Positions 18,117-39,147 of a stretch of 64,000 nucleotides of DNA are shown one piece after another. Source of the DNA: Selenomonas sp. GACV-9. Lineage in GTDB: Bacteria; Bacillota; Negativicutes; Selenomonadales; Selenomonadaceae. The notes below the pieces were generated by a model. The model was not told the DNA's origin and did no database searches. It was given only the letters and a program-made list of their open reading frames with translations. Position 1 is the stretch's first letter. The number at the start of each line of letters is the position of its first letter. The position numbers and the translations under genes are program-made. The DNA lies in contig FPAX01000003.1 of assembly GCA_900116485.1 (NCBI GenBank), positions 1 through 64,000 on the forward strand. Direction: 5' to 3'.

Positions 18117-19390
<1,274 letters not shown>

Positions 19391-20159: not shown

Positions 20160-22250
20160 TCATCTCAATAAATCTGATTTTTTTCCATAACTAGTTATGT
20201 ATGCCCCCTTCTGTGCTCTAGTAAGGGCTACATACAGCAAACATTTTTCTGAAACTTCTGCTTCCTGTTTTGCCACAGAGTCATCGATATCAACTACATT
20301 ACTCAAGGGAACTATGCCTTTATTTACTCCTGCGATAAACACATACTGAAATTCCAATCCTTTTACCCGATGCATCGTTGCTAAACGAATGCCCTCCTGA
20401 TGGCGATCATCCATTTTTTCTTTTTTCAGTTCATAACAGCGGAAACCACACTCAGTAAATGCTTTGATATAGTTATCCAGCATATTATGAGTCCTAGCCG
20501 TAATGCAGATATCTTTGAGCGGTATGCCACTTGCTTCCAGGCTATTAATCTGTTCTTCGATAAATTCAATTTCCTTATTAGCCGAACGGAAATATTTTAC
20601 CATCGGTTTCTCTCCATGTGTCAATGATTGGCACTCGTCTTTATCGAGAGCTTCGCCATCCAGGTCATCAAAAGAGATGCCTTCTAACAAGGCAAACGCA
20701 TACGCTCTTGTCTCTTCCGTCGTACGATAATTGATGCGCAGTATGCTGCTGCGTCCCCGTACCTGGATGCCGCACTTGGAAAGGACTGTTTTATTGCGAT
20801 AGATACGCTGATGGGAATCACCAACAATAAAGATATCATTCGGGTGTTCTTCACCGGCAATGCTGCGGATCAGCTCCATAGCAATAGGACTGAAATCCTG
20901 TCCTTCATCCACAACGATATACGGATATAAGGTTTCATGCTGTTTATCAATGAGGAAACGGCACTCATCCATTGCCCACTGAACATCCCGCTTACCTGCA
21001 GCCTTCATTTGGCGCTGATAGCTTTCAAACACGGCCCAGACTTGCTTACGCATATTGCGATTCAGGCGTACCCCACGCCCATTACGCGAGCAACGAATAT
21101 ACTTTGCAAGATTCATAGCATGCTGTGGAATAACCACGCGTGCCCATTCTTCTGCATAAAAATCAACTGTCAGGCCCGTGTCTTCAGCCATAGCTTCACC
21201 GATTGCATTTTCCCAGCAATTCTTCAGGAACGCATCATTATACTCAATACGGGCATCATAACCAGCATTCCGCATGAAATCACTTACCCAGGAATCCAGG
21301 TTGATGACTTCAATATGACGCAATTCGTCATTGGTGCAGATCTTTCGCAGGTTGTCCTGAATATCCGCTGCCAGATTAGCCGTGAATGTTGTGAAGAGCA
21401 CCCGCTGACGTCCTGTCAGTTTCCCCGCTAAGCGTCTAGCCCTATGCATTGCTACCACCGTTTTACCAGTACCGGCACCACCAGTTACACGGGCTGATCC
21501 TGAATAGTCCTTATTGACAATTTTACGCTGTGCCGGATGCAGGAACACACGCCATTTTTCAAGAGGTCGCTCCAGCATCGCTTGTAAATCATCTTCGCCT
21601 TCTACCACACGGAAGAATCTCTGATTTTCAACATTATCCAAAGCAGCACGAAGGTCCATTGCTTTAGGAGCTGCATTTTCTCGTTCAGCTTCCAAAAGTT
21701 CAATTACTTCGTCTACTGGAATATCTTCTAGAATCCAAGATAAACCCTCGTAGACATCTGGCGTAATGATACCTTTGCTTTGAATAAACATATCTTTGGA
21801 TGTCAAAGTTCGGATGAATGGCAGCTGTTCTTCAGGGACTCCCAACTTCAGAAGGTTATCATCGGTAATATCCTCAAAGATTCCCTTTACCTGCACTTGT
21901 TCTGTAATTTCTTGTACCGTATAAAGCTGAATCGCACCTGTGAAAGGATTGATATTGCAGCGTTTCCGTTCTGCCCACGCATAGGCCTCGTCATGATGAT
22001 CTACCCATACAAGTAAAAATACACCACTCTTATCCTCACGAAGAACAATGCCACGATAAGTATCATCGATTCGTACAGACCAAACCTTCTTATCCAGTTT
22101 GCTGGCAATCTTCTCATAATTTATTGCAGGTGACGTCGGATTGCTGCGGAACTTTACCAAGAAATCTGAGGTATGCTTCTGTGCCTGCGATGGCAGTCGG
22201 GCAAACGAATCCAGAAATGTATCACCAATGACTACTTTCACATCACTCAT
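20160..22250 (-). CDS. RelE-like domain fused to UvrD-type (SF1) helicase
   Basis: A 696-residue protein. Residues 1-95 look like a RelE/ParE fold: DTFLDSFARLPSQAQ, then KVWSVRIDDTYRGIV and WVDHHDEAYAWAERK. Residues about 240-690 are an SF1 helicase: Walker A GGAGTGKT near 260, DEGQD near 448, motif III/IV around GDSHQRIYR, motif V MHRVKGLEF near 628, and motif VI VALTRAQKGAY. Its ATG overlaps the stop of the giant helicase (ATGA), so the two are translationally coupled. By context it is a defence protein, with the RelE-like part possibly for nucleic-acid or ribosome binding. Gabija's GajB is also UvrD-like but lacks this N-terminus and this company. Confidence 0.8.
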   Translation of the reverse strand: MSDVKVVIGDTFLDSFARLPSQAQKHTSDFLVKFRSNPTSPAINYEKIASKLDKKVWSVRIDDTYRGIVLREDKSGVFLLVWVDHHDEAYAWAERKRCNINPFTGAIQLYTVQEITEQVQVKGIFEDITDDNLLKLGVPEEQLPFIRTLTSKDMFIQSKGIITPDVYEGLSWILEDIPVDEVIELLEAERENAAPKAMDLRAALDNVENQRFFRVVEGEDDLQAMLERPLEKWRVFLHPAQRKIVNKDYSGSARVTGGAGTGKTVVAMHRARRLAGKLTGRQRVLFTTFTANLAADIQDNLRKICTNDELRHIEVINLDSWVSDFMRNAGYDARIEYNDAFLKNCWENAIGEAMAEDTGLTVDFYAEEWARVVIPQHAMNLAKYIRCSRNGRGVRLNRNMRKQVWAVFESYQRQMKAAGKRDVQWAMDECRFLIDKQHETLYPYIVVDEGQDFSPIAMELIRSIAGEEHPNDIFIVGDSHQRIYRNKTVLSKCGIQVRGRSSILRINYRTTEETRAYAFALLEGISFDDLDGEALDKDECQSLTHGEKPMVKYFRSANKEIEFIEEQINSLEASGIPLKDICITARTHNMLDNYIKAFTECGFRCYELKKEKMDDRHQEGIRLATMHRVKGLEFQYVFIAGVNKGIVPLSNVVDIDDSVAKQEAEVSEKCLLYVALTRAQKGAYITSYGKKSDLLR

Positions 22251-25200
22251 GCCTTATCCCCTCCAAAATACTCATTCACATTGTCTACCGTCTCATCAAA
22301 GACAGTCCATCCTGCCTTCTCGAAGTTATCACGGCTCTCCTCACAATCACTGATAATGAAGGCCAGTTTTCGATTGCTCCAAGCTAATTCGACACCGTCA
22401 AGGACAGTATCGCCATCCTGGACGTCTTCAGCAACAACATCAGGCAATTCAATTCCCTGTTCACACATAGACGACAGTAACATCATCTCCTGTTCATCTG
22501 CATATTCCTTCAATTTCTCAATAATTTCATTCCAAGGCGAAAGAACACCATCAGTCATCTCATTGTCATCCGTAATCAAATCTGGAATCGGCAATGCCAG
22601 ATAGACTTTATCCTGTATACCAAGTTCAGAAACACCAATGAAATTATCCATAAACTGCATCACGTTATGGAAATGCCAGAAACCATTCCATTCCTGTTCA
22701 TATTTATCACCACGCCAATCGGATCTATCCTCAAGGACCGCTGCGACCGTTATAGCTTTAGCAGGATTTTCCTTGTAGCGAACAATATCCATGCCCATCA
22801 AACAGCTTAAATCCGACTGTGAAGAACGTGGCTGCCACCAGCCAAATATCGTCTTACCAAAACCAAAGCTCATATCAATAAAATGACTCTCTTCTGCAAT
22901 AGCTCCGATTTTCTGATTCCATCGATTGAATTCCAATTTTGCCGTTGCCTTGCTCTTCTCCGAAAGCGACATTGCATAAGCGTCTGCTTGCCCACGGAAC
23001 TGGTCCTCGGCATTGGAAAGACTCAGGTACTGCATCAACATTTCCATTGCTGTGCTGCGTGAAGGTTGCAGAGACATTGCATTTTTCTTTTTAACCATTG
23101 GGCTATACATTTGCGGACCTGAGGGCATCTGATTGGCATCCAGTGCATTGGTCGCGAAATCGTCCTGCACTTGGAAAACAGACTGTACATCCTTATAGCT
23201 CAACGACCAGACACGGAAATTACCGCTGCGATGAATTGCCTCACGTTTTAAGGTATCATCGGCCACCTTATCCTTGTGATAGAGGAATCCGTCCGTAAAA
23301 ACAGCGACTGGTAAATGCTGCCCATCACTGGTATCGAAATTCGGCCACAGAACAAAATCAGGCTTACATTTGACACTGACACCCTGCACCTGATCAAAAA
23401 GCACCTGTGGTTCAATTTCCCAAGAATACCGCTCAACCGTATGATGCACAATATTCTCTTCTGTGATGTTCAAGATGTAACCTTGCTTATCATGGACGAG
23501 AGCCTGTTGGATTTCCACCTTGCGGTGCTCATTCCCCATCTGACCAAGAGCAACGATGAATTGCTGCTCTAACTCGCTGTCGAAAAGATGATTTGTCTGC
23601 ACACTGTCTAATTTATCAATTTTCTCGATATTATCCTTACCACTCAAAATAGTACGAAGCAGCTTGATAGCCACCCGACGGGAAATATCGCCGATATTAC
23701 GGCTTTGACGATATGCATAGAGACAGTGATAGCATCCATCTTTATGGGGATCATCCTTACAGTTGCAATTCTCCAGTACCTGAAGTGCCTTCTCAAAAAC
23801 AGTAGCCAAAGCATCATTATGCTGCATAAGCTGCTTGAGATAACCTGTTCCACCTGGGACAGAATCATATAAGACCAAATATTGTTTACGGTAATCCGCA
23901 TTCTTGACAGGAACTTCACTGACTGTAGCCCGCAGGTGATCTACATTGCCAAAGTACTCCTTCATGCCCAGCATAAATGCTGCTGTAAAGGATTCTGTTT
24001 TCATCCGTGTTCCCACAGCTGTTGTCTCCGGAATCAGGATACGGAGAACCTCCGTTGAGAATTCACGATAAAGGAACAGACACTCTTCTTCTGCATCTTT
24101 TACCAACGCTTCATTCTTACGCGTTTTACAGTATGGTGCATGATTGATTTTGCCTTCATCATTCTTGATACGACCGCAATATTTGCAGACATGGAATCCT
24201 TTACGTGCTTCCTCGATACCATTGACGGTCATCTCCTCTGTCTTAGCAATATCTGCCTCACCAAAGTTTATCTCTCTCAAATCTGCTTTGCGGACAAACT
24301 CATAGCCAAAGGGAAATTCATCATTATTCATCGAATAGGCACTGACGATATCCTGATCTTCGTCTACATCGACCAGAAGCTGTTTCGTATAGAATTTCAC
24401 CTCACGTGAATCACTTCCATCGTCAATGAGACTTTTGTTCATATCCATATTAGAATAGACCATCTTAACCTTCAGCATCTCACGAACTTGCCCATCATCG
24501 GCCCACATAGGACTGCCACAATGCGGACATGCTGCCCGATTCTTCAGTGTCGATTCCGGCTCTGCATGAGCACAGTTCGGGCAAAGACGCCAAAGCTCAG
24601 GCTTCGACGAATTCATATCCACTTGGTCGATGGTGAAATGATGGCCTCCCGCAAAAAAGCTATTATCGGGCGCAAACTCGCTGATTGCTGACGAAGCAGC
24701 CCGATTATACTCATAGACCGTATTCTGATATTTGCTCTTTTTCTTTGATGACGCATCCTTAACATCATCATCGACCTTGCGGAACAGGACGGCCTTCAGC
24801 GTAATTCCTTCTTCCGGGAAAGCATAATTCGGCAGCAATCCCTCGTCCGAAAGGAAGTTAAAGATATCCTTACGCTTCAGATTCTTTTTGACATTCAGCA
24901 ACGCCATCTTTTCATATTTTAGAGTCTTGATTTCTTCCTCATAGGAAGCGTCCTTCGGCTTTGCTTCATATTCCTTTTGCAGGATATTCAAAGTCTTGAT
25001 ATTCTTATTGATGCTGTCAATCTCCTCCGCCATTTCACGGAAACTTTCCAACACACGATTCTGTAAAGGCGGCTCTGACAAGCCTTTTCCTTTGGCAAAA
25101 ATCTCCAATTCTTCCCTGGCTTGGTCATCCAGTTCATTCTCAAATAAACGGGTAAACATCTGGAACAACTGCGCCTTTTTCTTCTGGACATAATTCAGGT

Positions 25201-28200
25201 AATTATGCGGGAAGGTATCTGCTGTACCATTCTTGACATTCGTTACCGCTTGCCCAAGATGCTTGGGTATCGCAGCTTCTTCTGTTCCATTCTTGATCCA
25301 GTTATCCATGCAGAAAGCCATAAACTGACGCTGGAGCACCGCAGATGCCCTTAAGAAAATATGTGGTGTAGCCACCGTTCCCTGCATCATATCCAGGGGC
25401 TCTGTATAGAAATACAAGTCATGGGCACTGGTATTCGCCACCACCAGAACCAGAGAATTGCCATCCGTACGGCCAGCTCGGCCTACGCGCTGAAGGAACT
25501 GAGCCTGTGCTGGCGGCATACTACACAGAATGACCGAAGACAAATCACCGATATCGATCCCCATTTCCAAGGTTGGCGTGCAGGACAGTACATTTGGATC
25601 CCAATCCTGTCGCTGCTCTTTCTCACTGCGCTTGAAATCATTCTCGACACGCTCTCGATCCTCACGCTCCAATAAACCTGTATGCTCGTAGGCATGGATA
25701 CGTACCAAATTCCCTGACCGATACAATCGCCCATAATAGCCCAGATTTGCATCTTCGTCGATTTGCAGATAGCCACCACAATTCCGTCTTGCGCAGGAAG
25801 CCCCTTCCATGACATCTGCAAAATCGCGTGAGAATGCTGCTTCATTTCTGCAGTCATCACAAGTAAAGGACAGAACATCATCCGAAAGATAAACATGCTC
25901 TTTGTTGAGTCCATAGATTTTCGCATGGCTGTCCTGAGAAGGCATTTCCTGTAAGATGCCTATTTTGACAGCTTCCGCCAAAATAATGCTGCTGATTTGA
26001 TCAGCTAGATCTTCACGCATCAAGTCATCTGCGTCCATACAGCTTTCAATCAAGGATGTGTATTTCCAATTTCTAGTCGTATCGAAATAATAAGGACTCT
26101 TCCCCTGACCATGCCAATCACACAGGAAGCGTGGCGTATTACGTCCAGACTGCAGACCTGGCATCCAGCGTACATGATCATTCGACAGAAGGTAAGGATG
26201 ACCATTTTCCGCACAGTAACGATAAAATACCCTGTCATCAAAAGCGCCATTCTGACGCAGAACAGTAAGCCAGCCATAGACCATACGCTGGAAATCAATA
26301 ATTGACGACGAAGTCATGACTCCTAATTCATTGATTACATGCTCCTGCACTGCCTCTGCCAAAGCATCGATTTCTTCCCTGTCAAACGTCAGACAGGAAC
26401 AACCAGACTTCTCCAAAGTCCTGCCGATACGGCTTGTAACGCCATATTCCAGCATGATTTCATAGCCAAGACGTCGACGGATATCATGCAGCAAGTCCTC
26501 AGCCGTCTGATCCTCGCCCAACTGTCTATTCTCTCGCAGCTCCTGATAGCCACGCATCCAGGTCATATTTGGTGGAATGAAGTAGCTGACAAACGTTTCC
26601 CGTGGCATCGTATTCTCATAGTAATCCAGGAAATCCCGCACAAAATCCACCAGATTCTGGTGATGGAAATGTTCTGTTCCAATAAAATGCTGAATAGCTC
26701 CACGAAGTCCAAATCGCCAGGTTCGCGAATTGAAGAAACCGGCACGATGAGCGGCATCCTGCACACTGTCGGAAAAAGCCAGCGTCTTCTTATCATCATT
26801 GAATGGCGATGCCATCATCTGAGAGATGCTGGCACTGATTTCCGTTGTACTCCGCAAGCCCATCAGAGAAACCCCGCGACGGCTACCACAGAAAGGACAT
26901 TCAATCTGCTTATGCTTCTGCGACCCAGACGTCTTGATTCTCGGCACTAAGACATCAATGTATTCGCCGTTATCCTCTGGGCAATGCGTTGCTTTATCAT
27001 CTATGAAGGAAAGATAGTGGCAGTTTGGACAGAGCTTAGCTGGACGCAAGTCTTGGGATGCATGATCATGGCTTCCCGGATACATCAAAACAATCTTGTC
27101 ACTGGCATTGAAATAGAGATTATAGAATCCCTCCAGATTCTTGATGACCGCATGATGCTGTTCATCCTCTACCGCAGCCCAGCCCGTCGCGCCACAATCA
27201 CGACAGTTCACTACCGGTAAATAGGCTTTCGTCTGCTGTGCATTGAGATCTGGAGCCAACATGTAGTCGATATTATGTCCAGAGACACGTCCCATCAAAC
27301 GGCGAAGTTCACGCATCCAGAGCTGAACTTGAACGAAAAGAAACGGAATGGGATGATCAGCGCTGCCTGTCCGTGCATAAGATACCAATGCGAAAAGAGA
27401 ATTCAAACCAGCATCTTTATCCGTCCAGCTATCCATAGCCGGAAAACGGCTCCGCAATTCTTCGTAAAGGCCACTGCACTGCCAGTAGTTTCCCTTCATC
27501 AGCGTAATGGCATCCTGGAAAAAGCCATGCGACTTCAGCGCTTCCCCCAATGCCAGGCGCTCAGAAACAACATTCTCTCCAAAAGTAAGTCCGGCCTCCG
27601 GGAACCATGCTCTGGCTGCCGCACGCAGATATGCTGCTTCATCCTCCATATCAGACAATTCCACAAGCTCCTGCACATCCTCTGCGGATGGCAGCTGGAC
27701 CGATTCACGTTCAATCCCTGCAAAGAACTCCTCAGGACTCAGACGATTCTCCGTGACCACAGACTCATCGTCAAATACTTCACCAAAAACTTCTGATGCA
27801 TACTGACGAATCTCCTTGTCGCTCCCTTTATCGCCCATCGTAGCCGATGTTCCTACGCAGCAAAGATATCCCATAGGCGTATAGAGGCGAGCTTTCAAAC
27901 GACGCAATAGACAGGCCAAATCCGTTCCCTGCGCACCATCGAAAGTGTGAAACTCATCCACAACGATATATTTCAGCGTTTCCGGATTATTATCATGCCA
28001 AAGACCTGCATCCTTTGGACGCACCAGCAAATAGTCCAGCATTTTATAGTTAGTCAGCAGGATATCCGGAGCCTGATTGATCATCGTCTCATGGTCAGTG
28101 ATAACCCCCAGAATATTTTCTTCCTTATTGGGTTCAGACATCATAGTTGAGCCTTTGCCACGACCACCACCAACATACATACCTGCCGTGATGCCTGCCG

Positions 28201-28663: not shown

Positions 28664-28687
28664 AGGAATCCCTCCAATATATAAACG

Positions 28688-28718
28688 AAAAAGGACACCT
28701 GTCCAAGACAGATGCCCT
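28688..28718 (-). terminator. Terminator-like hairpin 3' of the Abi gene (hairpin 2)
   Basis: In the minus-strand RNA an 11-bp stem (28693-28703 with 28707-28717, two G-U pairs) has a 3-nt loop and is followed by TTTTT. It sits between the Abi gene and the giant helicase gene, so readthrough or a second promoter is needed for the helicase. Confidence 0.7.
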
Positions 28719-28729
28719 CACATAAAACT

Positions 28730-28754
28730 AGGGCATCGTCAGCAACGATGCCCT
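28730..28754 (-). other. Second hairpin 3' of the Abi gene (hairpin 1)
   Basis: A perfect 10-bp stem (AGGGCATCGT with ACGATGCCCT) with a 5-nt loop. Its 5' arm shares AGGGCATC with that of hairpin 2, so the two look like a repeated RNA unit rather than two chance terminators. Confidence 0.65.
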
Positions 28755-28811
28755 TACAAAAGGTAAACCTTTTTGATGTTGACACCATTATAACCGACAT
28801 GGATAGAAATG

Positions 28812-29792
28812 TCAATGAATATGCTGAATCAGATTTAAGATAAACCGCAGTGAGGAAACTACTAATAAGTTATTTTCAAACTGCCCCAATGATGGCTCAA
28901 TCATTTTATGGGAAAGCTGATCCCACGTGTTCTTCATTCGCTCCTTGGCTTCCGAGGAAACCAGCTGATCATATACATAAAACAAGCCCGTCATCTCCAA
29001 TAAAGGACGATTCGAGAGCTTTTTCGAACGATCATCTTTGCTCATGCCCAATACATGGGATGCATAATCTGAGATATATTTCGGCGGTCTTGTCCCATCA
29101 CTAGGAGCAAAGTTTACGAATAAGCAATTGTTATGTGCACAAGCATTGCGCATACTCTTTACCATGTTAAGAATACCTTTTGGAATAGTATTCGGATGCG
29201 GGTACTTATTCCTATAGTATTCGAAAAACTTCAGCAAATCGCCAAAAGTCAAGAGCTCCAGCAATACCCATACCGGACAATCAATCTCCGTTATCTTTTT
29301 CTTAGGATAACCTTCATCTGTTGTTACAATCTCTACAGTAAAGTATTTTTCAAACAGGCCTTTGGTATAGACGCCCCCACTGGTTCGAACTAAATTCTCG
29401 CGAATATACGGATTATCCCTCAGAAAATCCTCAACAATCTGATAACCATCTTCTTCATCATTGTCCTCAAGTTCCTGCAGCAAATGTACCTGAATGGCAT
29501 GCTCCACATCAATGCTCATCTGCAGCAGCTTTTCTCGAAACTCTTTATCCAATGCAGATAATGTTGTCAGATTCTGAAAATCCAGCTGGATATATTTTCC
29601 TTTGTTATTACCGAAAATATGCTTCGGATAGTTCTTGCGATAAGCTGCCGTCCGCATATAGTTATTACGCTTCTTGAGGTAAAGGATAGCATCCTCTTCA
29701 TTCATGAGGTCGAAGCGAATTCCCTTTTCATTCCGCATCATTGCAATCAGTTCTTCGGATTTTCGTTTTGGTTTTAATATTCGATTACACAT
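28812..29792 (-). CDS. Abi_2-family (AbiD/AbiF-type) HEPN protein
   Basis: A 326-residue protein of the abortive-infection Abi_2 family. It has the early RFDLMNEEDAILYLKKRNNY..AAYR segment, DVEHAIQVHLLQELE, LLELLTFGDLLKFFEYYR, and a HEPN RNase-type motif RNACAH (R-x4-H, near residue 214) followed by NNCLF. Family members are thought to cleave RNA and arrest infected cells. The ribosome binding site is weak. It lies within the defence operon, 28 nt after the PD-(D/E)XK-type gene and before two hairpins and the giant helicase. It may be an independent toxin module nested in the locus. Confidence 0.82.
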   Translation of the reverse strand: MCNRILKPKRKSEELIAMMRNEKGIRFDLMNEEDAILYLKKRNNYMRTAAYRKNYPKHIFGNNKGKYIQLDFQNLTTLSALDKEFREKLLQMSIDVEHAIQVHLLQELEDNDEEDGYQIVEDFLRDNPYIRENLVRTSGGVYTKGLFEKYFTVEIVTTDEGYPKKKITEIDCPVWVLLELLTFGDLLKFFEYYRNKYPHPNTIPKGILNMVKSMRNACAHNNCLFVNFAPSDGTRPPKYISDYASHVLGMSKDDRSKKLSNRPLLEMTGLFYVYDQLVSSEAKERMKNTWDQLSHKMIEPSLGQFENNLLVVSSLRFILNLIQHIH

Positions 29793-29820
29793 AAATATGC
29801 ACCACTTCTACGCCCCACAT

Positions 29821-31203
29821 TTAATACTTACTAGCAGATGCTTTTGCTTTTGCATCTATAATTATAACAGTTGCTGGATTTAAGCCTTTCAAGGTCATTT
29901 CTTGGAATTTATCATTGACTGCTTCTATCCTTTTGCTGCATTTTCCATTATCAACTAATACAAAAATTTTATTTTCTGTTTTTTCCGCCTTTGCATATTC
30001 TTCAATCTGTATTTCCAACCCATGAACACACTGAGCGTTTGAAGTGAGCTTTACTTCTATAACAGTCTTATCATTCCCACGACTAATTTTGAAATCGACT
30101 GGTCCTCTCCCCATATTTTCTTCCGGATTCATATCCCAATTATGCTCTTGACAATACAAATAACCAACTGCTTGAATTGTTTTTTGTACAAACTTTTCCG
30201 AGTCCCAATTGAAAGGATTTATTATTAAATCACTTCCTTTTTGAAATTCAACCCAATGTTTAAAAGCATCTAATATCTTCTTTGATGCCTCAAATGAGTT
30301 ATTAGCATTTTCCTCAGAAAATCTAATTTCATCAAGTATCGTATCTATTACATACTGTTCATTATCCATGACATTTAATCGACTTACATTTTCAGCATTA
30401 TATCCTGAAAGAATTCTCATAAGTTTTTTGGGATCATTCAAAACGTTTTCTCGAATCCATTTCTTCTTCTCTTTAATAGAATTTTTGTTCCAATTATCCA
30501 AAACTATTTCATTTATTTCATTTCGAATAACTTCATTTTCTCGACAAACGCGTTCAATATCATCCCAGTTACGAGCAATTGGCATTTCTTGAAGAATGTC
30601 AATTGGCAATAATAAAATCTTTGTTTTTTTAAAAGGATTTAATGGTATTCCTTCTTCAAAACTAATATTAGGATAAGCCGTTTCATTAATTTTCAATTCT
30701 TCATATATTCTTCTAGAATATGCATTAATATCGTCATATACCAATCTAGCAATCATATCACTGATTCTATCTGGTCCAACATTTTCTTCAAACAAACTAA
30801 TCAAGTGAAACAGCTCAGGATGAATAGATGCTTTTTTGATAATATGATATGCATCTTTGATTATCTGTTCTCTAAGGGTATCACCAAAGCCCGCTCCATG
30901 ACCACTTTTAGAAAATCCAAGATTTATTCCATTTACTTCTGAAAAAGAAAATTTCTTAAAAGCGGATTTATAAAATTTGTCTTTTAGATTTGTCGATTCT
31001 GCAGATTCTAATAGCATTTCTATTTCACTAAAATATTTATTAATATTAGCATACGAATCAGCAAATTCAGGAATAGTCGTCACTTGAAGTCTCTTAATAT
31101 TTATAAAAAATGGACTATCCTTATCTAACAAACAATCAAAAACACCTTTTTGACGTATAACTCTTTTATCTATAGAGAAATAAGTTGAAAAAAGTACGCT
31201 CAT
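29821..31203 (-). CDS. PD-(D/E)XK nuclease-like protein of unknown family
   Basis: A 460-residue product from the ATG at 31203 (GGAGG 6 nt upstream). The N-terminal 330 residues show no domain I recognise. The C-terminal part has a candidate nuclease core: YCQEHNWDMNPEENMGRGPVD..VIEVKLTSNAQCVHG, that is Asp, 13 residues, then E-V-K, followed by a helix with QIEEYAKAE. Codon use is strikingly AT-rich even next to its island neighbours, a sign of separate acquisition. It occupies the slot between methylase and helicase where other systems carry an effector; DrmC (PLD nuclease) is missing here. A nuclease function is inferred only. Confidence 0.65.
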   Translation of the reverse strand: MSVLFSTYFSIDKRVIRQKGVFDCLLDKDSPFFINIKRLQVTTIPEFADSYANINKYFSEIEMLLESAESTNLKDKFYKSAFKKFSFSEVNGINLGFSKSGHGAGFGDTLREQIIKDAYHIIKKASIHPELFHLISLFEENVGPDRISDMIARLVYDDINAYSRRIYEELKINETAYPNISFEEGIPLNPFKKTKILLLPIDILQEMPIARNWDDIERVCRENEVIRNEINEIVLDNWNKNSIKEKKKWIRENVLNDPKKLMRILSGYNAENVSRLNVMDNEQYVIDTILDEIRFSEENANNSFEASKKILDAFKHWVEFQKGSDLIINPFNWDSEKFVQKTIQAVGYLYCQEHNWDMNPEENMGRGPVDFKISRGNDKTVIEVKLTSNAQCVHGLEIQIEEYAKAEKTENKIFVLVDNGKCSKRIEAVNDKFQEMTLKGLNPATVIIIDAKAKASASKY

Positions 31204-31234
31204 GAAAATCCTCCGATGTATTTTTACTATGGAA

Positions 31235-34200
31235 TTAATCCTTATACTTTTTTTCAAAAAATCCCCATACCGTATCATAATCTTTTTCACGATCACAACA
31301 GATGAATGGCGCGACGTATTCTACCGTGCGCTCGCGAGGACCGCCTGGCTGAGTATCGTCGGTGAAGGAATGAGCATAGGTCTTTCCAGCCGAATAATCT
31401 TTGATTGTTTCCCATTCATTCTTGTCTACACCGATGTATTTGCGTCCCTGGTCATCTTTTCCAGTCATGCCTTTGTTGACGGTGAAGACAATACGACCAT
31501 TGGCATCGTACCAGGTATCGGCTTCATAGCTCTGTAAAACAGGGAACTGGATACGGTAGATGGTCTTAAGCTGCGTCAGCGTCATGCCTAGAGCCATCGC
31601 CGTCAGAACATCAAGCTCCACCAATGCCTCACGGCGCTCATAGTCTGTACGCAACGGCGTATGCCAATCCCATTGACTGGTCAGATTTGCAAATTTTGAC
31701 TGATCAAGCCGGGAATTTTTTTTTGCCCATGAATCAGTGCCATATGACTTGTCAAATTGCCGCTGCCAAAGATCAGCATAGTAAACAGTTAAACAGTTCA
31801 GTAATAAAGCGCGTAATTTGATGGCATTATCAAACTTCGAATGAACAATCGGAAAAAGCATATTCGTATTATAATTTACATGACCCTTTCCAATGGTTTT
31901 TACCAGAAAATCAAATGGTAAACTGCATTCCAAACCTGCCATCAATGGCACAAAAGCTTCATCTTGATAAGCTATACCAAAAACGGTATTTACATAAGCT
32001 GTTCCTGGCGGAATAATACATGCTGCTAAAGTACGTTCCGATGTAGAACCAACCATTTCACGATTCACAATACGATAAAGTGAATAAAATTTCTTTTTCC
32101 ATGGTGTTATAGGAATCCGCCGTTGATATTCATCCATCGAACAAGATGGCTTATATTTACTACGAATAAGATAGCCTTCGGACATATCCGTCAGATCTAC
32201 TCGATCATAGTCGCTATTGACTTTATAAATTCGTCGTGTAGTTTGGAAACACGGATTTGCTATATTGATATGCGCACCAGATAAAATCATCTCTTGATAT
32301 GAGTCAGGAAAAGATACATTCGTAACCATAGTACCATCTTGTTGTGAATTTGTCTCATTCCAGAATTGTGTGGTATACACAGCATCTTCTAAACCTGCGA
32401 CTTTATCCTTTTGTTGATTTAGGCACCTCAACACCTCAAGAAGTTCTTTTGCATGGATAACAGGAAGGCGTGCCTGCTGCCATTTACATCCACCATCAAA
32501 CAGGTTAGCAAAAAGTTGCAGTTCCTTCTGGGTAATATGAATCATACGATGAGGATGACCAGTAATATTCCATCCACCTTTTTCATCTTTGAATCCTGGA
32601 ATAGCTTTCCATTCGTCACCATCAAAACATTCCGCAATAGTAGTTGGCCAATACAGATTATTGATAACTGTAAACGCGATAGCGTGTGGACCACCATAAA
32701 CGTTCAAAGAGAACGTGGTATGGTGGTGCACTTCGTGGAAAATTTTACGTTCATTTACGAACGCGAAACGCGTCCGCAAACGCCCGTATAAATTTTCCCG
32801 AAGTGCACCACCGTTCGGGTCGTCGAAGACGCCTTCTGGATGCACGAAAGCTGCGATGCCTTCCTGATTCTTTCGATTAGAAATTGTATAGAATGAAAGG
32901 GGTAAGAAACATTTGTAAAGATTTGCCTTCTGTCCTTTAAGTGATGGATAATTTGTCGTAGCGTTTAAGAAACTTTGTTGACCAGCCATTCGTTCATAGT
33001 CTTCAAAGTAATGGGCATACGTCGCTGCATCTTCCAATGCCTTTTCACGTTCCTGTGTGGTCTGCATTGCCGTCAATTTTTTCACAGCAAACATTGGATT
33101 TTTATCCCCAAGGATGCTCTGCTCATTCCACTCTAACTTGACCCAAGGCGGGTTCCCGATTTCGAGGCTCATACCTCCTTGATCTTTGAATACATCGGCA
33201 AACTCCAACTCCCAATGCAGGAATTTATTCTGACGAGCAATCTTTCGCACCAGTGCCATACGTGGGAACACCATACACAACTGATCGATATCCACTACAG
33301 TTCCCGACGGACTGATTTTACGCAGTTTTTCCGCCATAGCATCTTGTTCTTCCTCGCGGGCACTGGCAAAGAGTCCCAACTGCTGATCATGATCAAACAG
33401 ACTCTGCTCCGGACTCATCAGGTCTTCACCACCACTGGTAGAAACCGTTCCATCAAGAATAAAGCCTAATTCAGCCAGAAACTGGTCACGGGTTGGCAGT
33501 AAATCCGCCTGATTGATTGGCCAGAACCACAGTGCGCACCAGTAATCCATAGCAAACCGCAAACGAGCATACGGTCCAGCATTCTTCATATGCTCAGACT
33601 TATAGTATTTGCGATAGATTTCATCCTTGCAACGAATGGTCGTATGGCTATCGTATACATCATCCTGATAACCATAGATGGAGAGTTTATCACGTGTCTC
33701 CCGTTCAATTGCCTTACGCAGTTCCACCTGTTCATGCCATAAGGTATCGATGGACTTGGAAAGTTTCAGCATAACCGAAACCTGTTCATCATCATACGGC
33801 TTCGTGAAATCTTTCTGCCAGGTTTTGATTTTCTTGATGTTCTCCGGTTCCAAACTTTTGATGACTTTATCACCGTAGTCTGCCATCCCCGGATCACCAG
33901 TCAGAAAATGATATACCTGCTTCTTCGGCATACGATATTTATCTGTCTTGATGCGCTCCGGCGCATTTTCGTACCAGCGCATACCTTTGCCTGTAGACTG
34001 GAGCTCACTGACCGTATAGCATTCACGGCGGGCACCAATCAAGGAGTTGCCATTGACCAGCTGCGTGCCGAACCAGGGCACGAAGCCACCTTCATGGATG
34101 GTGTTGAGCCAGAGAGACACCTCTGCCAGCTCTACAGCCGTTGGATTTAGGTCAACGCCATAGACATTGCGGTCCGCAATGAACATCTTGATTTTCTGCA

Positions 34201-36040
34201 GTTCCTGAGGACGGCGGTCATAGGACAAAGACTCGCCCAGTTCTTCCTGACGCTTCTTCAGGTAGGCTTCTGCCAGCTGATTGATGGCTTCGTTGAGGAA
34301 TGCGGCTGAGCCCATAGCCGGCTCACAGACGGTCAGCTGCAGAATATCATCAGCGGTCTTGTCTTTCAGCAGTTCCTTCAACGCGTATTTGACCAGACAT
34401 TTCGTCAATACTTCCGGTGTATAGTAGGAAGCGGAAGTCTCGCGCTCACGGCCTGCCAGACGATAGATGAAGCTGCCCTGCTCATAGGTACGCAGGCTAC
34501 TCTTTGGATTCTTCGGTTCTACACGGACACGCTCTTCTTCCGTATAATTGTCCAGTTCTTCCTCTGGTACGAAATAACCAACATCCAGTTCATTGAACTC
34601 ATCCTTGGCACGCTTAACTTCATAGAGCTTTTCCTGTGCAATAAAACCACGGTATGAAAGCAATGCCTCATAAACGGCACCCATCTGGTTGATGCCAAGA
34701 TTTGCATAGGAAATACGCCCCCGGCGGGCATTCTTTTTGCCCGTATCACGGGTCAGGCTCATGAGATTGATGATACGCAGCATCACACGGTTCCGAAGTT
34801 TGGCAGAATGAACCAACTGCGTACGCTCCGGATCGAAAATATGTGCTTTGAGCGGTGGCAGGATAAAGTCATCCGTATGGCTTTCGATTTTGCGGTATTC
34901 CGCCTGCTTTTCCTCTGTTGTAGGGTAACCGGTATAGATAAGCTCGAAGAGTTTCTTCAGCGTATCGCCAATAAACGTCCCTTCCAGTACCTTTTCATCA
35001 GGCTGGATAGACATCTGCTCGGCAATCTCACGCAGGCTCTCTATGGAATAGCCAGTCACATAGGAAGCTGCCTTCATTGGTGCATAGCCGATATCTTCCC
35101 TTGACTCCATGAATAGGACGAAGAGCATCCGATACATGTAGCGCAGACACTGAAGCGTCAAATCCCCCGCATCCACAGGCTCCGCTACCATATCCCTGCC
35201 CTTGTTGTTCTTCAAGTCATAAAGGACCTCATTGCCCAGCAGCTCGATGCTTTCCCGCAGCGCATATTTGAGGTCTTCGGAAACTCCCGACACATTCTTT
35301 TCCGATGCTTCATTCAACTCATCCAGCAGAGATTTACCATCCTCCGGGCAAAGGCTGTCATGATGCAGCAGTACTGCCACGACCTGCCAGGTACTCTCAT
35401 CATTGCGGCTGAACAAGGTTTCCAAATCAAAGGACAGGCAGCGCTTCTCATTCCATTTATTACGATCCGCCAGGACAATCTGATTCATCCCGATGAACAG
35501 CAGCCAACGTGGCGGCTCCGTCTGGTCAAACAGAATTTTATTGGCCAATTCTTCGTTACCAATACTTGTCAGGCTTAGTTCCCCCATGTCAGGAGAGAAT
35601 ACACGGCTTTCCATGACTCCAGCAGAAAAATCCTGAGAAGCGGATAACAGTACCCACAACAAGGGCGCGCCAGTACTCTGCTTGATTTCCAAAGCTACTG
35701 GAACTGGCAGTTCTTCCTGCCCCTCTCCCAGCATTACCATTTCCGTCTTCATAGCAGGATAACCAAGAGCCGTCAGATATTCGCCTGCCAGACCGGCAAT
35801 TTGTTCCAGCGTCTCTGTATCAAAGCGTTCTTTCTGGAATCGTTCATGAGCCATATAGTAATGTCGGCTGGCAGCCCGCAGCTCCGACCATGGCGTTTTC
35901 GATTCCGTCTCTTTTGCGGACGTTTTCCAATCCGTAATCTGCGTTTTGATGTTGTCGGCAAAAATCGTGCTCAGATAATGGTTTGTATAGTATTCATTGA
36001 CATTATCAATGCCAGTCAAATCGATATCTTTCCCCACCAT
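31235..36040 (-). CDS. Large N6-adenine DNA methyltransferase (DrmMI-like)
   Basis: A 1601-residue protein. The SAM-binding motif EPAMGSAAFLNEA is near residue 571 and the catalytic NPPW near 961, spaced as in Eco57I/DrmMI/PglX-type gamma-class enzymes with long insertions. About 540 residues of N-terminal domain and a large C-terminal domain, presumably for target recognition, complete it. It likely marks host DNA so the helicases spare it. It begins 2 nt after the SNF2 helicase stop, so the two are coupled, as drmD-drmMI are in class 1 DISARM. Residues near 1430-1456 are encoded over copies of the dispersed palindrome. Confidence 0.85.
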   Translation of the reverse strand: MVGKDIDLTGIDNVNEYYTNHYLSTIFADNIKTQITDWKTSAKETESKTPWSELRAASRHYYMAHERFQKERFDTETLEQIAGLAGEYLTALGYPAMKTEMVMLGEGQEELPVPVALEIKQSTGAPLLWVLLSASQDFSAGVMESRVFSPDMGELSLTSIGNEELANKILFDQTEPPRWLLFIGMNQIVLADRNKWNEKRCLSFDLETLFSRNDESTWQVVAVLLHHDSLCPEDGKSLLDELNEASEKNVSGVSEDLKYALRESIELLGNEVLYDLKNNKGRDMVAEPVDAGDLTLQCLRYMYRMLFVLFMESREDIGYAPMKAASYVTGYSIESLREIAEQMSIQPDEKVLEGTFIGDTLKKLFELIYTGYPTTEEKQAEYRKIESHTDDFILPPLKAHIFDPERTQLVHSAKLRNRVMLRIINLMSLTRDTGKKNARRGRISYANLGINQMGAVYEALLSYRGFIAQEKLYEVKRAKDEFNELDVGYFVPEEELDNYTEEERVRVEPKNPKSSLRTYEQGSFIYRLAGRERETSASYYTPEVLTKCLVKYALKELLKDKTADDILQLTVCEPAMGSAAFLNEAINQLAEAYLKKRQEELGESLSYDRRPQELQKIKMFIADRNVYGVDLNPTAVELAEVSLWLNTIHEGGFVPWFGTQLVNGNSLIGARRECYTVSELQSTGKGMRWYENAPERIKTDKYRMPKKQVYHFLTGDPGMADYGDKVIKSLEPENIKKIKTWQKDFTKPYDDEQVSVMLKLSKSIDTLWHEQVELRKAIERETRDKLSIYGYQDDVYDSHTTIRCKDEIYRKYYKSEHMKNAGPYARLRFAMDYWCALWFWPINQADLLPTRDQFLAELGFILDGTVSTSGGEDLMSPEQSLFDHDQQLGLFASAREEEQDAMAEKLRKISPSGTVVDIDQLCMVFPRMALVRKIARQNKFLHWELEFADVFKDQGGMSLEIGNPPWVKLEWNEQSILGDKNPMFAVKKLTAMQTTQEREKALEDAATYAHYFEDYERMAGQQSFLNATTNYPSLKGQKANLYKCFLPLSFYTISNRKNQEGIAAFVHPEGVFDDPNGGALRENLYGRLRTRFAFVNERKIFHEVHHHTTFSLNVYGGPHAIAFTVINNLYWPTTIAECFDGDEWKAIPGFKDEKGGWNITGHPHRMIHITQKELQLFANLFDGGCKWQQARLPVIHAKELLEVLRCLNQQKDKVAGLEDAVYTTQFWNETNSQQDGTMVTNVSFPDSYQEMILSGAHINIANPCFQTTRRIYKVNSDYDRVDLTDMSEGYLIRSKYKPSCSMDEYQRRIPITPWKKKFYSLYRIVNREMVGSTSERTLAACIIPPGTAYVNTVFGIAYQDEAFVPLMAGLECSLPFDFLVKTIGKGHVNYNTNMLFPIVHSKFDNAIKLRALLLNCLTVYYADLWQRQFDKSYGTDSWAKKNSRLDQSKFANLTSQWDWHTPLRTDYERREALVELDVLTAMALGMTLTQLKTIYRIQFPVLQSYEADTWYDANGRIVFTVNKGMTGKDDQGRKYIGVDKNEWETIKDYSAGKTYAHSFTDDTQPGGPRERTVEYVAPFICCDREKDYDTVWGFFEKKYKD
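31673..31755. repeat. Palindrome array in the methyltransferase gene
   Basis: TTGACTGGTCAG at 31673-31684, TTGACTGATCAA at 31696-31707 (one mismatch) and ATGACTTGTCAA at 31744-31755. Read in-frame as LTSQ, LDQS and FDKS. Confidence 0.8.
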
Positions 36041-36042
36041 TG

Positions 36043-38901
36043 TCAGTTAGCTCCTTTCTGCTGACCAGTCAAAACAGCAATAACACGGATATAAGGCTGA
36101 TTTTCGATAGTCATAGAATCATTGACCCACTTCGTGAAGTCCTTGAATAACGCATCCACTTCACGCATTTTCTCTTCACGCTTACGCTCACCCTTATTTT
36201 GGAACAACGTGAGCTGATAAGCTTTATGTTTGTCTTCCAGTTCTGCCAGTTTCGTGAGCTCTTCATCAATCTGATCTTTTGTTCGCTCCTGATACGCCTG
36301 ATAGAATCCTGCCAGATAATCTTTTGCCTGTGCAACTGCATCCTGCAGCAGTCCCTGATTTGCGGTCTTTTCTCCTGCATGATGATTCTCACGGTCTACC
36401 TGATTGGGTATAGCATTCTCAGCCTGAACATGTGCTGCAGACAACACGCTCTCCAAGGACATTGCCTCAACGAATTTTCCCTTTTCATAGCGCAAACCAA
36501 ACCACTCATCGACCAATGGTGTGGATTTTCGATTAGGAATACTGCCATTCATCAGGAAAATGCAGGTATCATCCGGCAGATTCGGCATGACAGCCAGCGG
36601 TGCTTCATCCCGATTATAAATCAGGCTTGCCTTATCATTCACCCAATCGAATATAGGGTGAAGCGGCCACAGATACTGGACTTCCGGCCAGGCATCGCCA
36701 TTCTTGTCCTGCTGACATTTACGGACTTCATCCATGCAGTACGTTTTATCGCTGACCAGACGCAAGGAATTTTTATCCTTGAGCATATCCGATACTTCTG
36801 CAGGCAGCAGACTCTTCATGCGATGCTTGATGTCTGCAGTCAGGTTGATATCGACTCCATGCACAGTCTCAAGTTTCGAGACGGGATGCTCCTCCGACTG
36901 ATTGAAATACTTCATGGCCTGGAAGAGATACTCCGTATCACTGTACAAAGTTTCATCCTTGCTGATTTTTGGTGCAGAATCCTCCACTTCTGATGCATCA
37001 GACAGCAGGAATTCCAATGGATCGAACTCTGCCACGTTATCATCCATCATCTTGCTGAACTCCTCAGCACTCTGCCCCTGCTCCATTGCCTGGGATACCA
37101 CAGACTCTTCTTCCTCCACAGCATACTGTCCCAGAAGCGTTGCCGGATCGCCAATGTTCTTCAGAGCCTGTTCTTCTTTCTCCACAAGAATCTGCAACAG
37201 ACGGATGTCACCACGGATTTTCTCATTCTCCGTTTCATTGACCAGATAACGAATATCTGGCTGCTTCGTCTGTCCATAACGGTCAATACGACCATTGCGC
37301 TGCTGGAATACCATCAGAGACCAGGGCAAATCGAAATGAATCATGCGATGGCTTAGATAATGGAGGTTCAAACCTTCTGATGCGACATCTGAAGCCACCA
37401 GTACACGAACCTTCGCACTAGCACGACCGAAATCCTCAACAATCCGTTGCTGGTCCTCATCGCTCATGGCACCGGAGATTTTCTCAATCTCGCCCTTCTT
37501 CAAGCGCAGATCTTTCGCCAACTGTTCATACAGATATTCCATCGTATCGACACGTTCCGTAAAAATAACGATACGGTCATCGTCAGTTTTGCGGTTCCAG
37601 GCATACTCTTTATCCTGCAGAATATCTAACAATTTCTGATAGCGTGAAAAGCTACTGGGAGTAATCTGTTCCAGTGCAGAGTGAAGCTCTTCCAGCAGAC
37701 GGATATCTTTGATCTGGTCATCCTCATATTTCTTCCGCAGCTTCTTTAACCGAGACTCGATGGTCCTCATGCAGGCAGCGGGGCTGGAAAATAATGCTTT
37801 TTCCAGGCTTGTCTTGAAGAGCTGGCCTTTTCCCTGCTTTTTCTCGATATCCATATCCAGCTGCATTTCTGTGAATACTTGATAGGCATCTTCTTCCGCG
37901 AAAGATGCCCGGCATTTTTCCTCAGAAATCTTACGGTCCAAGACTACACCGCTCATCTGGTCTTTGACATCCTTCTTGAAGCGGCGAACAAAAAGTCCTT
38001 TGATTTCATCTGCCGTATATTCTTCCGGATTTGCAATAGCGGTCGGATCCAGCATATTCATCAACGAAGCAAAGCTTTTCGCCTTGCCATCATGCGGCGT
38101 AGCCGACAGCATGATCATGGTATCCGAACGGCCAGCCAGCAGTTCTGCCAATCTTGCACGCTGAGAGGTACGGTCACTACGGGATGCTACGCTCTGTGCC
38201 TCATCAATGACAATGATATCCCAATAAGCACGTTCCAGATGGGTACGGTAAGCCACATCATTTTTCAACGTATCGATAGAGATGATGGTTTTATCGTAAT
38301 AGAAGAACGGATTATAGGTAGATGGCAATTTTGCACGAATCTGACGAATCTTATTGGAATCAAGGCGCACCAAAGGAATGGTGAAGCGATTCCACATTTC
38401 TTTCTGGAACTGCACCATCATAGCCTTGCCGGTTACGACCAGGATTCTTTTCCCCTTACCACGTAAGATAAGTTCGCTCATGAGAATTCCCGCCTCAAGA
38501 GTCTTACCAAGACCAACTGCATCTGCAATCAAAATACGTTGCCGTGACTGATTCAATGCAATCTGCGCCGGTTCCAGCTGATAATTCATCGTATCCATCG
38601 CAGCACGATTACCTACATGGATAGCATTATCGGTAGGGATACGTTTACGCCACTGACTTTCAAGATAAAGGAGCGTATTACGATACTGTGGCGATTCATC
38701 CACAATCAGCTTTACCTTTGTCGGATCTACTGGAATAACTGTATCAATATCATCCAAGAAAATCGCATTGCGATCCCTTACCAACGGAGAGATGCCGATG
38801 CAATGAAGTGCACGAGCTCCCATGGTATTCTTTTCTATCTTCTTAATCATCCATTCTTCGTCACGAATGATGACGCGCATCCCCGGTGCAAACTTCGTCA
38901 T
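36043..38901 (-). CDS. SNF2-family helicase (DrmD-like)
   Basis: A 952-residue SF2 DNA translocase. The Walker A region ADAVGLGKTLEAG is near residue 129, DEAQ near 235, SATPHDG near 265, and motif VI QQRNGRIDRYGQ near 539. The last 350 residues are an uncharacterised C-terminal domain with a coiled-coil stretch. The short N-terminal beta-rich region (TKFAPGMRVIIRDEEW) is typical of DISARM DrmD and related helicases. GGGAGG lies 5 nt before the ATG. It follows the XRE gene by 36 nt and precedes the methylase by 2 nt. A palindrome copy (36061-36072) encodes LTGQ close to its C-terminus. Confidence 0.88.
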   Translation of the reverse strand: MTKFAPGMRVIIRDEEWMIKKIEKNTMGARALHCIGISPLVRDRNAIFLDDIDTVIPVDPTKVKLIVDESPQYRNTLLYLESQWRKRIPTDNAIHVGNRAAMDTMNYQLEPAQIALNQSRQRILIADAVGLGKTLEAGILMSELILRGKGKRILVVTGKAMMVQFQKEMWNRFTIPLVRLDSNKIRQIRAKLPSTYNPFFYYDKTIISIDTLKNDVAYRTHLERAYWDIIVIDEAQSVASRSDRTSQRARLAELLAGRSDTMIMLSATPHDGKAKSFASLMNMLDPTAIANPEEYTADEIKGLFVRRFKKDVKDQMSGVVLDRKISEEKCRASFAEEDAYQVFTEMQLDMDIEKKQGKGQLFKTSLEKALFSSPAACMRTIESRLKKLRKKYEDDQIKDIRLLEELHSALEQITPSSFSRYQKLLDILQDKEYAWNRKTDDDRIVIFTERVDTMEYLYEQLAKDLRLKKGEIEKISGAMSDEDQQRIVEDFGRASAKVRVLVASDVASEGLNLHYLSHRMIHFDLPWSLMVFQQRNGRIDRYGQTKQPDIRYLVNETENEKIRGDIRLLQILVEKEEQALKNIGDPATLLGQYAVEEEESVVSQAMEQGQSAEEFSKMMDDNVAEFDPLEFLLSDASEVEDSAPKISKDETLYSDTEYLFQAMKYFNQSEEHPVSKLETVHGVDINLTADIKHRMKSLLPAEVSDMLKDKNSLRLVSDKTYCMDEVRKCQQDKNGDAWPEVQYLWPLHPIFDWVNDKASLIYNRDEAPLAVMPNLPDDTCIFLMNGSIPNRKSTPLVDEWFGLRYEKGKFVEAMSLESVLSAAHVQAENAIPNQVDRENHHAGEKTANQGLLQDAVAQAKDYLAGFYQAYQERTKDQIDEELTKLAELEDKHKAYQLTLFQNKGERKREEKMREVDALFKDFTKWVNDSMTIENQPYIRVIAVLTGQQKGAN
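36061..36072. repeat. Single palindrome near the SNF2 gene 3' end
   Basis: CTGACCAGTCAA; nine residues from the C-terminus, read in-frame as LTGQ. Confidence 0.75.
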
Positions 38902-38937
38902 GTCAACCTCCCGAACCTCTACCTATACGACTAGCCT

Positions 38938-39147
38938 TCACTCATCTTCTGGCACAATCTCAATCACATCATCAAAAGTACAATCCAACACCTGACAGAT
39001 TTTCACCAAAATAGCCAGTGAGATATATTCGTTACGAGATAACTTAGCCAAGGTACTTCCACTGATTCCAGCCATTGCCGCAAACTTTGTCTTCTTCAAA
39101 TTTTTATCGATTAGGAGCTTGAACAATCTGTTATAAGAAACTGCCAT
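38938..39147 (-). CDS. XRE-family regulator (Cro/C1-type HTH)
   Basis: A 69-residue single-domain DNA-binding protein. The helix-turn-helix is recognisable in KFAAMAGISGSTLAKLSRNEYISLAILVKICQVLDC, with an acidic tail. AAGGAGG is upstream of the ATG. It is the promoter-proximal gene of the defence operon and probably autoregulates it through sites around its own -10 region. Small XRE regulators of this type are common in front of BREX and restriction loci. Confidence 0.88.
   Translation of the reverse strand: MAVSYNRLFKLLIDKNLKKTKFAAMAGISGSTLAKLSRNEYISLAILVKICQVLDCTFDDVIEIVPEDE

Follow-up and report, generated by a model that had tools for sequence, protein, structure and literature searches.

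The first 64,000 nucleotides of contig FPAX01000003.1 of Selenomonas sp. GACV-9 (the window) carry seven minus-strand genes, at 20160-39147, that resemble components of several anti-phage systems at once, which raises the question of what system they form. An earlier note on this DNA saw in them a defense operon related to DISARM that encodes three helicases, one of them an undivided YprA/DUF1998 protein, and proposed a hybrid of DISARM and Druantia, or a distinct branch, in which a nuclease and a HEPN protein replace the nuclease DrmC. The seven open reading frames (ORFs) were confirmed at about the coordinates given earlier and the description of the operon holds, as does the reservation that the operon might belong to a DISARM-related type named only recently: judged by sequence, four of the seven genes are armA-armB-armC-armD of ARMADA type II. 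The hybrid itself is not supported. Very probably, the locus is an ARMADA type II operon with a filled slot between armB and armC, in which the core restricts phage directly and the inserted nuclease and RNA-restrained HEPN toxin serve as a backup.

ARMADA type II was described in a 2025 preprint by Bell et al. as a four-gene anti-phage system of E. coli NCTC 12900 and ATCC 8739 (PMC12458937, here its main-text sections). As given there, the genes follow the strict order ArmA (BrxHII-like), ArmB (PglX-like), ArmC (YprA-like) and ArmD (RelE plus a GajB-like helicase), all four are required, and the E. coli system protects directly, the cell not being killed. By the prediction of the same text, the YprA helicase itself ends in an active nuclease domain, for which we use the preprint's name Vsr; the text also reports that defense is only partly lost upon mutation of ArmD D454 or ArmB G605 in E. 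coli. The window's core matches this gene order and these domains, with armB and armC set apart by two genes and an RNA. The same order with similar gene lengths was found in one E. coli plasmid locus and in the Zorya-Druantia-ARMADA island of E. coli KCTC 2571, to whose proteins those of the window are 47.5% (ArmA), 43.3% (ArmB), 37.1% (ArmC) and 47.0% (ArmD) identical. The residue numbers of the preprint fit the KCTC 2571 proteins, and this strain served as the alignment bridge. Each of the eight residues that the preprint mutated has a conserved counterpart here: K136 and D236 of ArmA correspond to K133 and D233 in the window, N971 and G605 of ArmB to N963 (in NPPW) and G577, K110 and D234 of ArmC to K103 and D236, and K266 and D454 of ArmD to K263 and D448. 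The window's ArmC scored 1212 bits over its full length against KCTC 2571 ArmC, as compared to 111 bits for the best piece against the DruE of the same strain. On the best PADLOC DruE models, the ArmC proteins of the window and E. coli reached 377 and 348 bits, as compared to 2179 bits for the true DruE (DruE and DruH of KCTC 2571 were verified by PADLOC at 2179 and 2553 bits). The N-terminal domain of ArmD is predicted to be RelE-like, with a model at a mean predicted local distance difference test (pLDDT) score of 89 and YoeB/RelE as the best PDB folds (four at E <=0.001); a sequence-profile search alone found nothing for this part. At the C-terminus of ArmC, the alignment contains a conserved FTDGFxYHKD-like stretch, Vsr-like by the name used in the preprint. 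Because gene order, domains, identities, tested residues, the RelE fold and the ArmC scores all match, the core is assigned to ARMADA type II.

The impression of a hybrid arises because PADLOC, in its 2023 release, spreads the ARMADA core over the models of several systems, namely DrmD, type IIG, DruE and GajB-like ones. The best matches were DrmD for the SNF2 helicase and DruE1 for the YprA helicase, with DrmMI among the matches of the methylase. Class 1 DISARM shares with the window an SNF2 helicase and a PglX-like methylase from the same families, but it was rejected: the window has a single 2138-aa chain and no separate DrmA and DrmB, and no PLD nuclease domain, the Pfam PLD domain being found in none of the seven proteins. 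The matches of ArmA to two PLD-helicase models (74 and 114 bits) are confined to the helicase part of those models, and on the NCBIfam DrmD model ArmA scores 338.9 bits, below the curated cut-off of 610. Druantia III (DruH-DruE) shares the giant YprA-like helicase, but it was likewise rejected, the window's ArmC being far closer to ArmC than to DruE and DruH being absent from the best 25 PADLOC families listed for each of the seven proteins.

To place the extra genes, ARMADA loci were collected from a genome-contig scan (80 kept; 372 stretches encoded a relative) and from viral contigs (L090-L094), together with L004, L005 and the window; 87 loci entered, and L030 was dropped as lying on the same contig as L004. 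Selection was by ArmC likeness and not by gap, and slots longer than ~10 kb or cut by contig ends would be missed. The junctions were measurable in 53 (armA/armB), 63 (armB/armC) and 68 (armC/armD) loci, and a junction was called filled at a gap of at least 250 bp. By this definition, and with the window included, 30 of the 63 armB/armC junctions are filled, as compared to two of 53 armA/armB junctions (L080 and L088) and none of the 68 armC/armD junctions; the remaining 33 armB/armC junctions are empty (<250 bp). L025, with ~9.8 kb ahead of armC, lies outside the 63, its armB piece being too short. Two loci differ in the core itself: in L081, armA and armB are divergent from armC and armD, unlike the order in other loci, and in L004 armD is present as two ORFs (14969-17095), either through an assembly frameshift or as a broken gene.

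A Pfam family (E <=0.01) could be assigned to one or more genes in 22 of the filled slots and in that of the window, and L010 holds an ortholog of the window's nuclease; nothing recognizable was found in L039, L053 and L091, and L045, L080 and L088 were outside the scan, which covered 41 of the 52 ORFs of at least 120 aa outside the window, with PADLOC run on 10 ORFs. The contents include GajA/GajB (Gabija; L014, and L020 by likeness), AbiLi/AbiLii (AbiL; L054), the PADLOC candidates PDC-M49A (L017) and PDC-S02 (L042), Schlafen AlbA_2 proteins (L011, L014, L041, L090), AAA_15/OLD-type ATPases (L067, L084), PIN (L033), PDDEXK_2 (L023) and Uma2 (L078) proteins, an Abi_2 protein on the opposite strand (L059), a helicase-PLD protein (L056), a NERD-kinase-helicase (L086), sacsin-like and DUF932 proteins (L093), M78 peptidases (L022, L049), Hsp70 (L087), DUF3800 and DUF559 proteins (L063) and a helicase (L012). 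Fifty of the 54 cargo ORFs of at least 120 aa, including the window's two, run with the operon, and the slot ORFs, compared for a first set of gap measurements, are not fragments of arm genes, except for one 63-aa ORF in L084. The cargo ORFs without any Pfam family, of 308 aa (L039), 685 aa (L053) and 284 aa (L091), are candidate new defense genes.

In E. coli, 513 of 5426 genomes carry at least 80% of the four-gene query and 527 carry any match. The armB/armC junction is empty in the copies listed: 38 of the 40 records listed from these 527 span 16209-16251 bp, as compared to 16248 bp for the query, and the other two are partial. E. coli ARMADA type II shares with the window the armA-armB-armC-armD order, the domains, the tested residues and the RelE-GajB fusion, but its armB/armC junction is empty in the listed copies, whereas that of the window holds two genes and an RNA. 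Since the E. coli copies are listed as colinear without insertion, the cargo may have escaped notice before. Cargo in an ARMADA junction is not mentioned in the sections of the preprint covered, nor did a term search of its main text find any (PMC12458937), and a literature search for nested cargo inside defense operons gave, judged from the listing, unrelated papers only.

Turnover of the slot is frequent. Slot occupancy, traced on a tree built from 63 ArmC proteins, requires 18 changes, 15 of them forced by well-supported branches; it is barely clustered on the tree, since label shuffling gives a mean of 21 changes and no more than 18 in 43 to 55 of 500 trials. The four loci L012, L053, L013 and L015 have ArmC proteins that are 96-97% identical (four pairs compared); the slot is empty in two of them and holds a different cargo in each of the other two. 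In eight of the 30 filled slots, stretches from the end of armB or the early part of armC of that locus lie within the slot on the same strand (E <=1e-5), as compared to none of 30 reversed slots; the eight do not include L063, in which sequence immediately ahead of armC is repeated. In the slot of L017, ~3305-3551 after the armB stop, the start of armC is fused directly to the end of armB between two cargo units, which is a scar of joined operons. Such scars would fit a course in which operons carrying different cargo recombine and deletion ensues. A second exchange is seen within ArmB, in which columns ~1050-1350 of the alignment fall to 31-57% identity in all 11 close pairs examined (ArmC at least 80% identical), while ArmA, ArmC and ArmD of the same pairs are 80-99% identical overall and the first 900 ArmB columns 84-100%, one window of L080/L087 excepted. 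The pairs were picked by hand from the tree, and several loci were used more than once. Given the general plan of such methylases, the swapped stretch is presumably the recognition domain.

These results bear on the rival view that a single machine is built from all seven genes, either as a genuine hybrid of DISARM and Druantia or as a new branch, with the nuclease and HEPN protein in place of DrmC. The split PADLOC matches and the co-directional, tightly packed cargo genes would suit such a machine, but the junction that houses both proteins is unfilled in 33 of the 63 measurable loci, E. coli needs no more than the four core genes according to the main text of the preprint (PMC12458937), the DrmD score of 339 bits lies below its cut-off of 610, and cargo differs among operons as close as L012, L053, L013 and L015. 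We consider this explanation very improbable.

The first cargo gene encodes a putative PD-(D/E)XK nuclease. The ORF previously assigned to it, 29821-31296, overlaps armB; the likeliest start is at 31203, an ATG behind GGAGGA at which the L010 ortholog also starts; the protein then has 460 aa and its gene stays clear of armB. The protein has no Pfam family above the cut-off and one weak PADLOC match (PDC-M36A, 24 bits). Its motif residues are kept in seven of eight aligned sequences, the window included, with GPIDF in L007 and loss of the acidic residues in L008. Its nearest slot relative is the 53% identical ortholog in the same slot of L010, and other relatives lie outside ARMADA (L006-L009, L137, L138). 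Relatives are rare, being present in one of 151 genomes of the family and three of 398 of the phylum (counting that of the window) and in 12 plasmid records, two of them over most of the protein; no phage record and no viral contig matched. No solved relative was found by sequence, and the AlphaFold model, built on a two-row alignment, has a pLDDT of 38. In L138 (10496-18919), a relative stands beside three large ORFs that, by eye, resemble another methylase/helicase system.

Extra effectors of the kinds found in the slot have been noted elsewhere. In the part of the article covered, PD-(D/E)XK, OLD/TOPRIM, HEPN, PIN and Schlafen proteins are described as embedded backup effectors inside or beside BREX core loci (PMC12839542). 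These are the same classes of effector as in the ARMADA type II slot, but BREX has another core, and the ARMADA type II insertions measured here lie nearly all at one fixed junction, some with flanking scars. Alternatively, the armB/armC insertions could be passengers, selfish or neutral genes settling at the site of least harm with no functional link to ARMADA. The occurrence of nuclease relatives outside ARMADA, the frequent gains and losses, and the weak clustering of occupancy are all compatible with passengers. However, essentially one of three junctions is used, nearly all cargo ORFs are co-directional with the operon, the cargo consists mostly of nucleases, helicases, ATPases and toxin-type proteins (our grouping), several of them named PADLOC systems, and the same classes are reported as backup effectors in BREX. 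On balance, we regard passengers as a rather unlikely explanation, and favor cargo that serves the operon as a second layer.

The second cargo protein is a member of the AbiD/AbiF group, having an Abi_2 domain with a HEPN R-x4-H motif: it scores 80.6 bits on Pfam Abi_2 (cut-off 25.6) and 68 bits on PADLOC AbiD, and its motif reads RNACAH at 215-220, with R215 and H220 invariant in 10 aligned sequences. An origin of Cas13 among the AbiD-like HEPN proteins has been proposed. Zilberzwige-Tal et al. (2025) reportedly describe an AbiF toxin with an RNA antitoxin. In the window, the two hairpins that the earlier note had treated as mere spacing do exist, but both (28757-28727 and 28719-28691) lie between the Abi_2 and big helicase genes, and they include what looks like an unannotated RNA gene. 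This stretch is strongly folded (z of -4.5 over 151 nt), and both hairpins are terminator-like. The parts of the candidate RNA are an A/U hairpin at 28773-28758, the long hairpin at 28757-28727 and a U-run.

Relatives of the Abi_2 protein were found in 12 of 398 genomes, in 27 of 300 genomes (the window's genome in both) and in 28 viral loci, the latter by an alignment-based search, as a single-sequence search found no viral contig. From 68 Abi_2 loci, three (L179, L181, L209) were dropped for matches that stop short of the C-terminus, and the remaining 65 were reduced to 49 at 90% identity, the window included; one of the 49, L178, has no downstream sequence. A motif consisting of a short AAAA/UUUU hairpin, 0-8 nt, a long hairpin and a U-run was found downstream of 27 of the 49 genes, upstream of one of 49, and in two of 960 shuffles. 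A promoter with 9-12 consensus matches stands 10-14 nt ahead of the motif in 26 of the 27 genes that have it, the window included, and in all 25 sequences examined (the window included; the doubtful L164 and L197 left out) the best promoter, of 9-12 matches, ends 10-14 nt before the motif. Because best promoter scores of at least 9 also occur in 157 of 500 shuffles, it is the fixed spacing that is telling. Promoter, spacing and motif together occur behind 26 of the 49 Abi_2 genes, as compared to two of 1977 other ORFs, and both exceptions (L179 and L181) are Abi_2 genes with an RNACAHNNC motif that the filter had missed. Among 25 sequences, all four Watson-Crick pair types occur at the three loop-nearest pairs of hairpin 1, and hairpin 2 varies similarly; as the motif finder selects for pairing, these counts are not an independent test, and control comes from the shuffles, from the upstream side and from the other ORFs.

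A covariance model was built from 23 sequences, with the window (L142) left out on purpose, one of the identical L184/L200 used, and L164 and L197 left out. This window-free model finds the window's RNA at 28773-28722 as its best match there, with 33.8 bits and an E of 0.013 over 141 kb or 0.0018 over 20 kb. The unit could instead be only a terminator plus a promoter for the next gene, here armC, and not an RNA that acts on Abi_2. Its second hairpin and U-run are indeed terminator-like, and a promoter stands in front. However, a promoter followed at 10-14 nt by a terminated two-hairpin unit would be an odd driver for the next gene, the unit recurs behind Abi_2 genes and otherwise behind only the two Abi_2 genes among the 1977 ORFs, and the first hairpin, which termination does not need, keeps its pairing through many changes. 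This alternative appears unlikely, and an RNA that would act on the Abi_2 protein is preferred.

The candidate RNA has no match in Rfam 15, and the known abiF RNA (RF03085) was rejected, with no match in 19000-40500 or 28600-28860; among the Abi_2 loci, one match below threshold (L149, 34.6 bits, cut-off 37) lies away from the downstream RNA. In the portion of the article covered, the RNA of RCd22-AbiF_Cd restrains AbiF, a toxin of the Abi_2 superfamily, and RCd22 precedes the gene and contains two abiF motifs (RF03085) (PMC12373285). Both cases place an Abi_2-superfamily HEPN protein beside a structured RNA, but the window's RNA is 3' of the gene, ~58 nt long and without an Rfam match, whereas RCd22 is 5' of its gene. 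For an RNA behind AbiD-like genes, nothing alike was found in the literature searched, which included parts of PMC12373285 and PMC12165695. By analogy, the RNA would restrain the Abi_2 toxin. Set against a type III toxin-antitoxin, in which an RNA neutralizes the toxin protein, the window has an RNA unit next to the gene, with no tandem repeats seen in it.

In the mechanism that we propose, ArmB would mark self DNA, and ArmA (SNF2), ArmC (YprA) and ArmD (RelE-UvrD) would act jointly on unmarked invading DNA, the nuclease domain being in ArmC. The PD-(D/E)XK nuclease and the AbiD-like HEPN RNase would form a backup layer, as has likewise been proposed for embedded effectors in BREX (PMC12839542, in the part covered). 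The ~58-nt two-hairpin RNA, transcribed from a strong promoter of its own that lies immediately after the gene, would restrain the HEPN protein until phage shut-off of host transcription, or an upset of the balance, frees the toxin and growth stops. Recombination in the conserved sequences that end armB and begin armC, near the swapped ArmB stretch, would bring cargo in and take it out. ARMADA membership (by sequence), the slot, the scars, the ArmB swap and the conserved RNA unit are the observations on which this proposal builds; from them we infer the backup role, the recombination route, the recognition domain and the restraint by RNA. ARMADA activity, the ArmC nuclease and the AbiF RNA antitoxin are taken from the covered text of PMC12458937 and PMC12373285, and concern loci other than this one.

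Several observations weigh against this proposal. The strict motif is absent behind 22 of the 49 Abi_2 genes (one of them without downstream sequence), and the covariance model matches eight of 21 motif-less loci, mostly weakly (E of 0.002 to 0.94); the best of the eight, L188, hardly differs from one of the training sequences, and L166, the relative of highest identity (43%), is missing from the eight. One group of Abi_2 relatives (for example L159, L162, L170 and L172) has no such RNA. The RNA lies downstream of the gene, has no tandem repeats that could be seen, and is not RF03085, so that its antitoxin function is argued by analogy. The terminator-like hairpins upstream of armC might lower its transcription; armC and armD may be transcribed past them by read-through or from the RNA promoter itself. 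The PD-(D/E)XK assignment is putative and comes from the motif, the cargo may be tolerated passengers, the window's own slot contains only short chance-like repeats and no armB/armC scar, and the window and its nearest relative, L033, are too distant to reveal an ArmB swap.

More broadly, ARMADA type II could be a recombining platform, in which the methylase part and the armB/armC slot are exchanged by homology to load second-line defenses, and a clade of AbiD-like HEPN proteins could have an undescribed family of RNA antitoxins, made of a short A/U hairpin and a terminator hairpin with their own promoter just behind the toxin gene; we judge the case for and against this wider reading to be evenly balanced. 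Slot cargo, the ArmB swap and the RNA behind Abi_2 do not appear in the preprint text covered (PMC12458937). What was presumed to be a hybrid becomes a known core with a rule, that ARMADA type II takes up extra genes at a single junction, close to the exchangeable part of its methylase. The rule predicts where new defense genes sit, as with the unknown ORFs in the filled slots of L039, L053 and L091, and layered defense becomes testable by swapping cargo on a constant core. If the RNA does restrain the toxin, RNA-controlled HEPN toxins extend beyond AbiF, which bears on the origin of Cas13.

Features of the ARMADA type II locus. Positions refer to the window; predicted functions are given with the evidence for each.
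Feature	Position	Strand	Length and evidence
XRE-family regulator	38938..39147	-	69 aa; Pfam HTH_26 60.8 bits
armA, BrxHII/RapA-like SNF2 helicase	36043..38901	-	952 aa; Pfam/PADLOC/NCBIfam; 47.5% to E. coli ArmA
armB, PglX-like N6-adenine methyltransferase	31235..36040	-	1601 aa; Pfam/PADLOC/NCBIfam; 43.3% to E. coli ArmB
Cargo 1, putative PD-(D/E)XK nuclease	29821..31203	-	460 aa; motif E361 ... GPVD370F ... E383-x-K385
Cargo 2, Abi_2 / AbiD-like HEPN protein	28812..29792	-	326 aa; Pfam Abi_2, PADLOC AbiD
Predicted sigma-70 promoter TTGACA-17-TATAAT	28787..28815	-	12/12 consensus matches; -35 overlaps Abi_2 stop codon
Cargo 3, candidate small RNA gene	28722..28780	-	~58 nt; 5' end inferred from promoter
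Second terminator-like hairpin ahead of armC	28691..28719	-	sequence folding
armC, YprA-like DEAD helicase, DUF1998/MZB, C-terminal Vsr-like stretch	22247..28663	-	2138 aa, TTG start
armD, RelE/YoeB-fold domain fused to GajB-like UvrD helicase	20160..22250	-	696 aa; 47.0% to E. coli ArmD

The domains named for these genes in the earlier note were recovered by Pfam, PADLOC or NCBIfam scans (SNF2, N6 methylase, Abi_2, DEAD/MZB, UvrD and XRE) and, for the RelE part of armD, by predicted structure; the nuclease was recovered by its motif only. An XRE-like gene lies within 600 bp upstream of armA in seven of 37 measurable loci, the window included. The island is poor in guanine plus cytosine (GC), with a GC content of 44-46% in the arm genes, 30% in the PD-(D/E)XK gene and 40% in the Abi_2 gene, as compared to 56% in the flanks. 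It is flanked by msrA and by the T-box leader of pheST (19193-19387, minus strand; Rfam RF00230, 102.8 bits), which precedes pheS-pheT and directly adjoins the island. At the island edge, a 224-aa ORF (19452-20126, minus strand) has no Pfam or NCBIfam match, and the five relatives compared lack a match to it at this site. No armA was found at an E of 1e-80 in the 21 other genomes of the genus examined. In the five relatives with the most similar complete MsrA (L130-L134), the msrA-pheS interval holds 1.5-7 kb of other DNA. This interval is a variable spot in the genus, with a DUF262-like ORF in L133 and helicase and transposase-like ORFs in L131 (named by eye).

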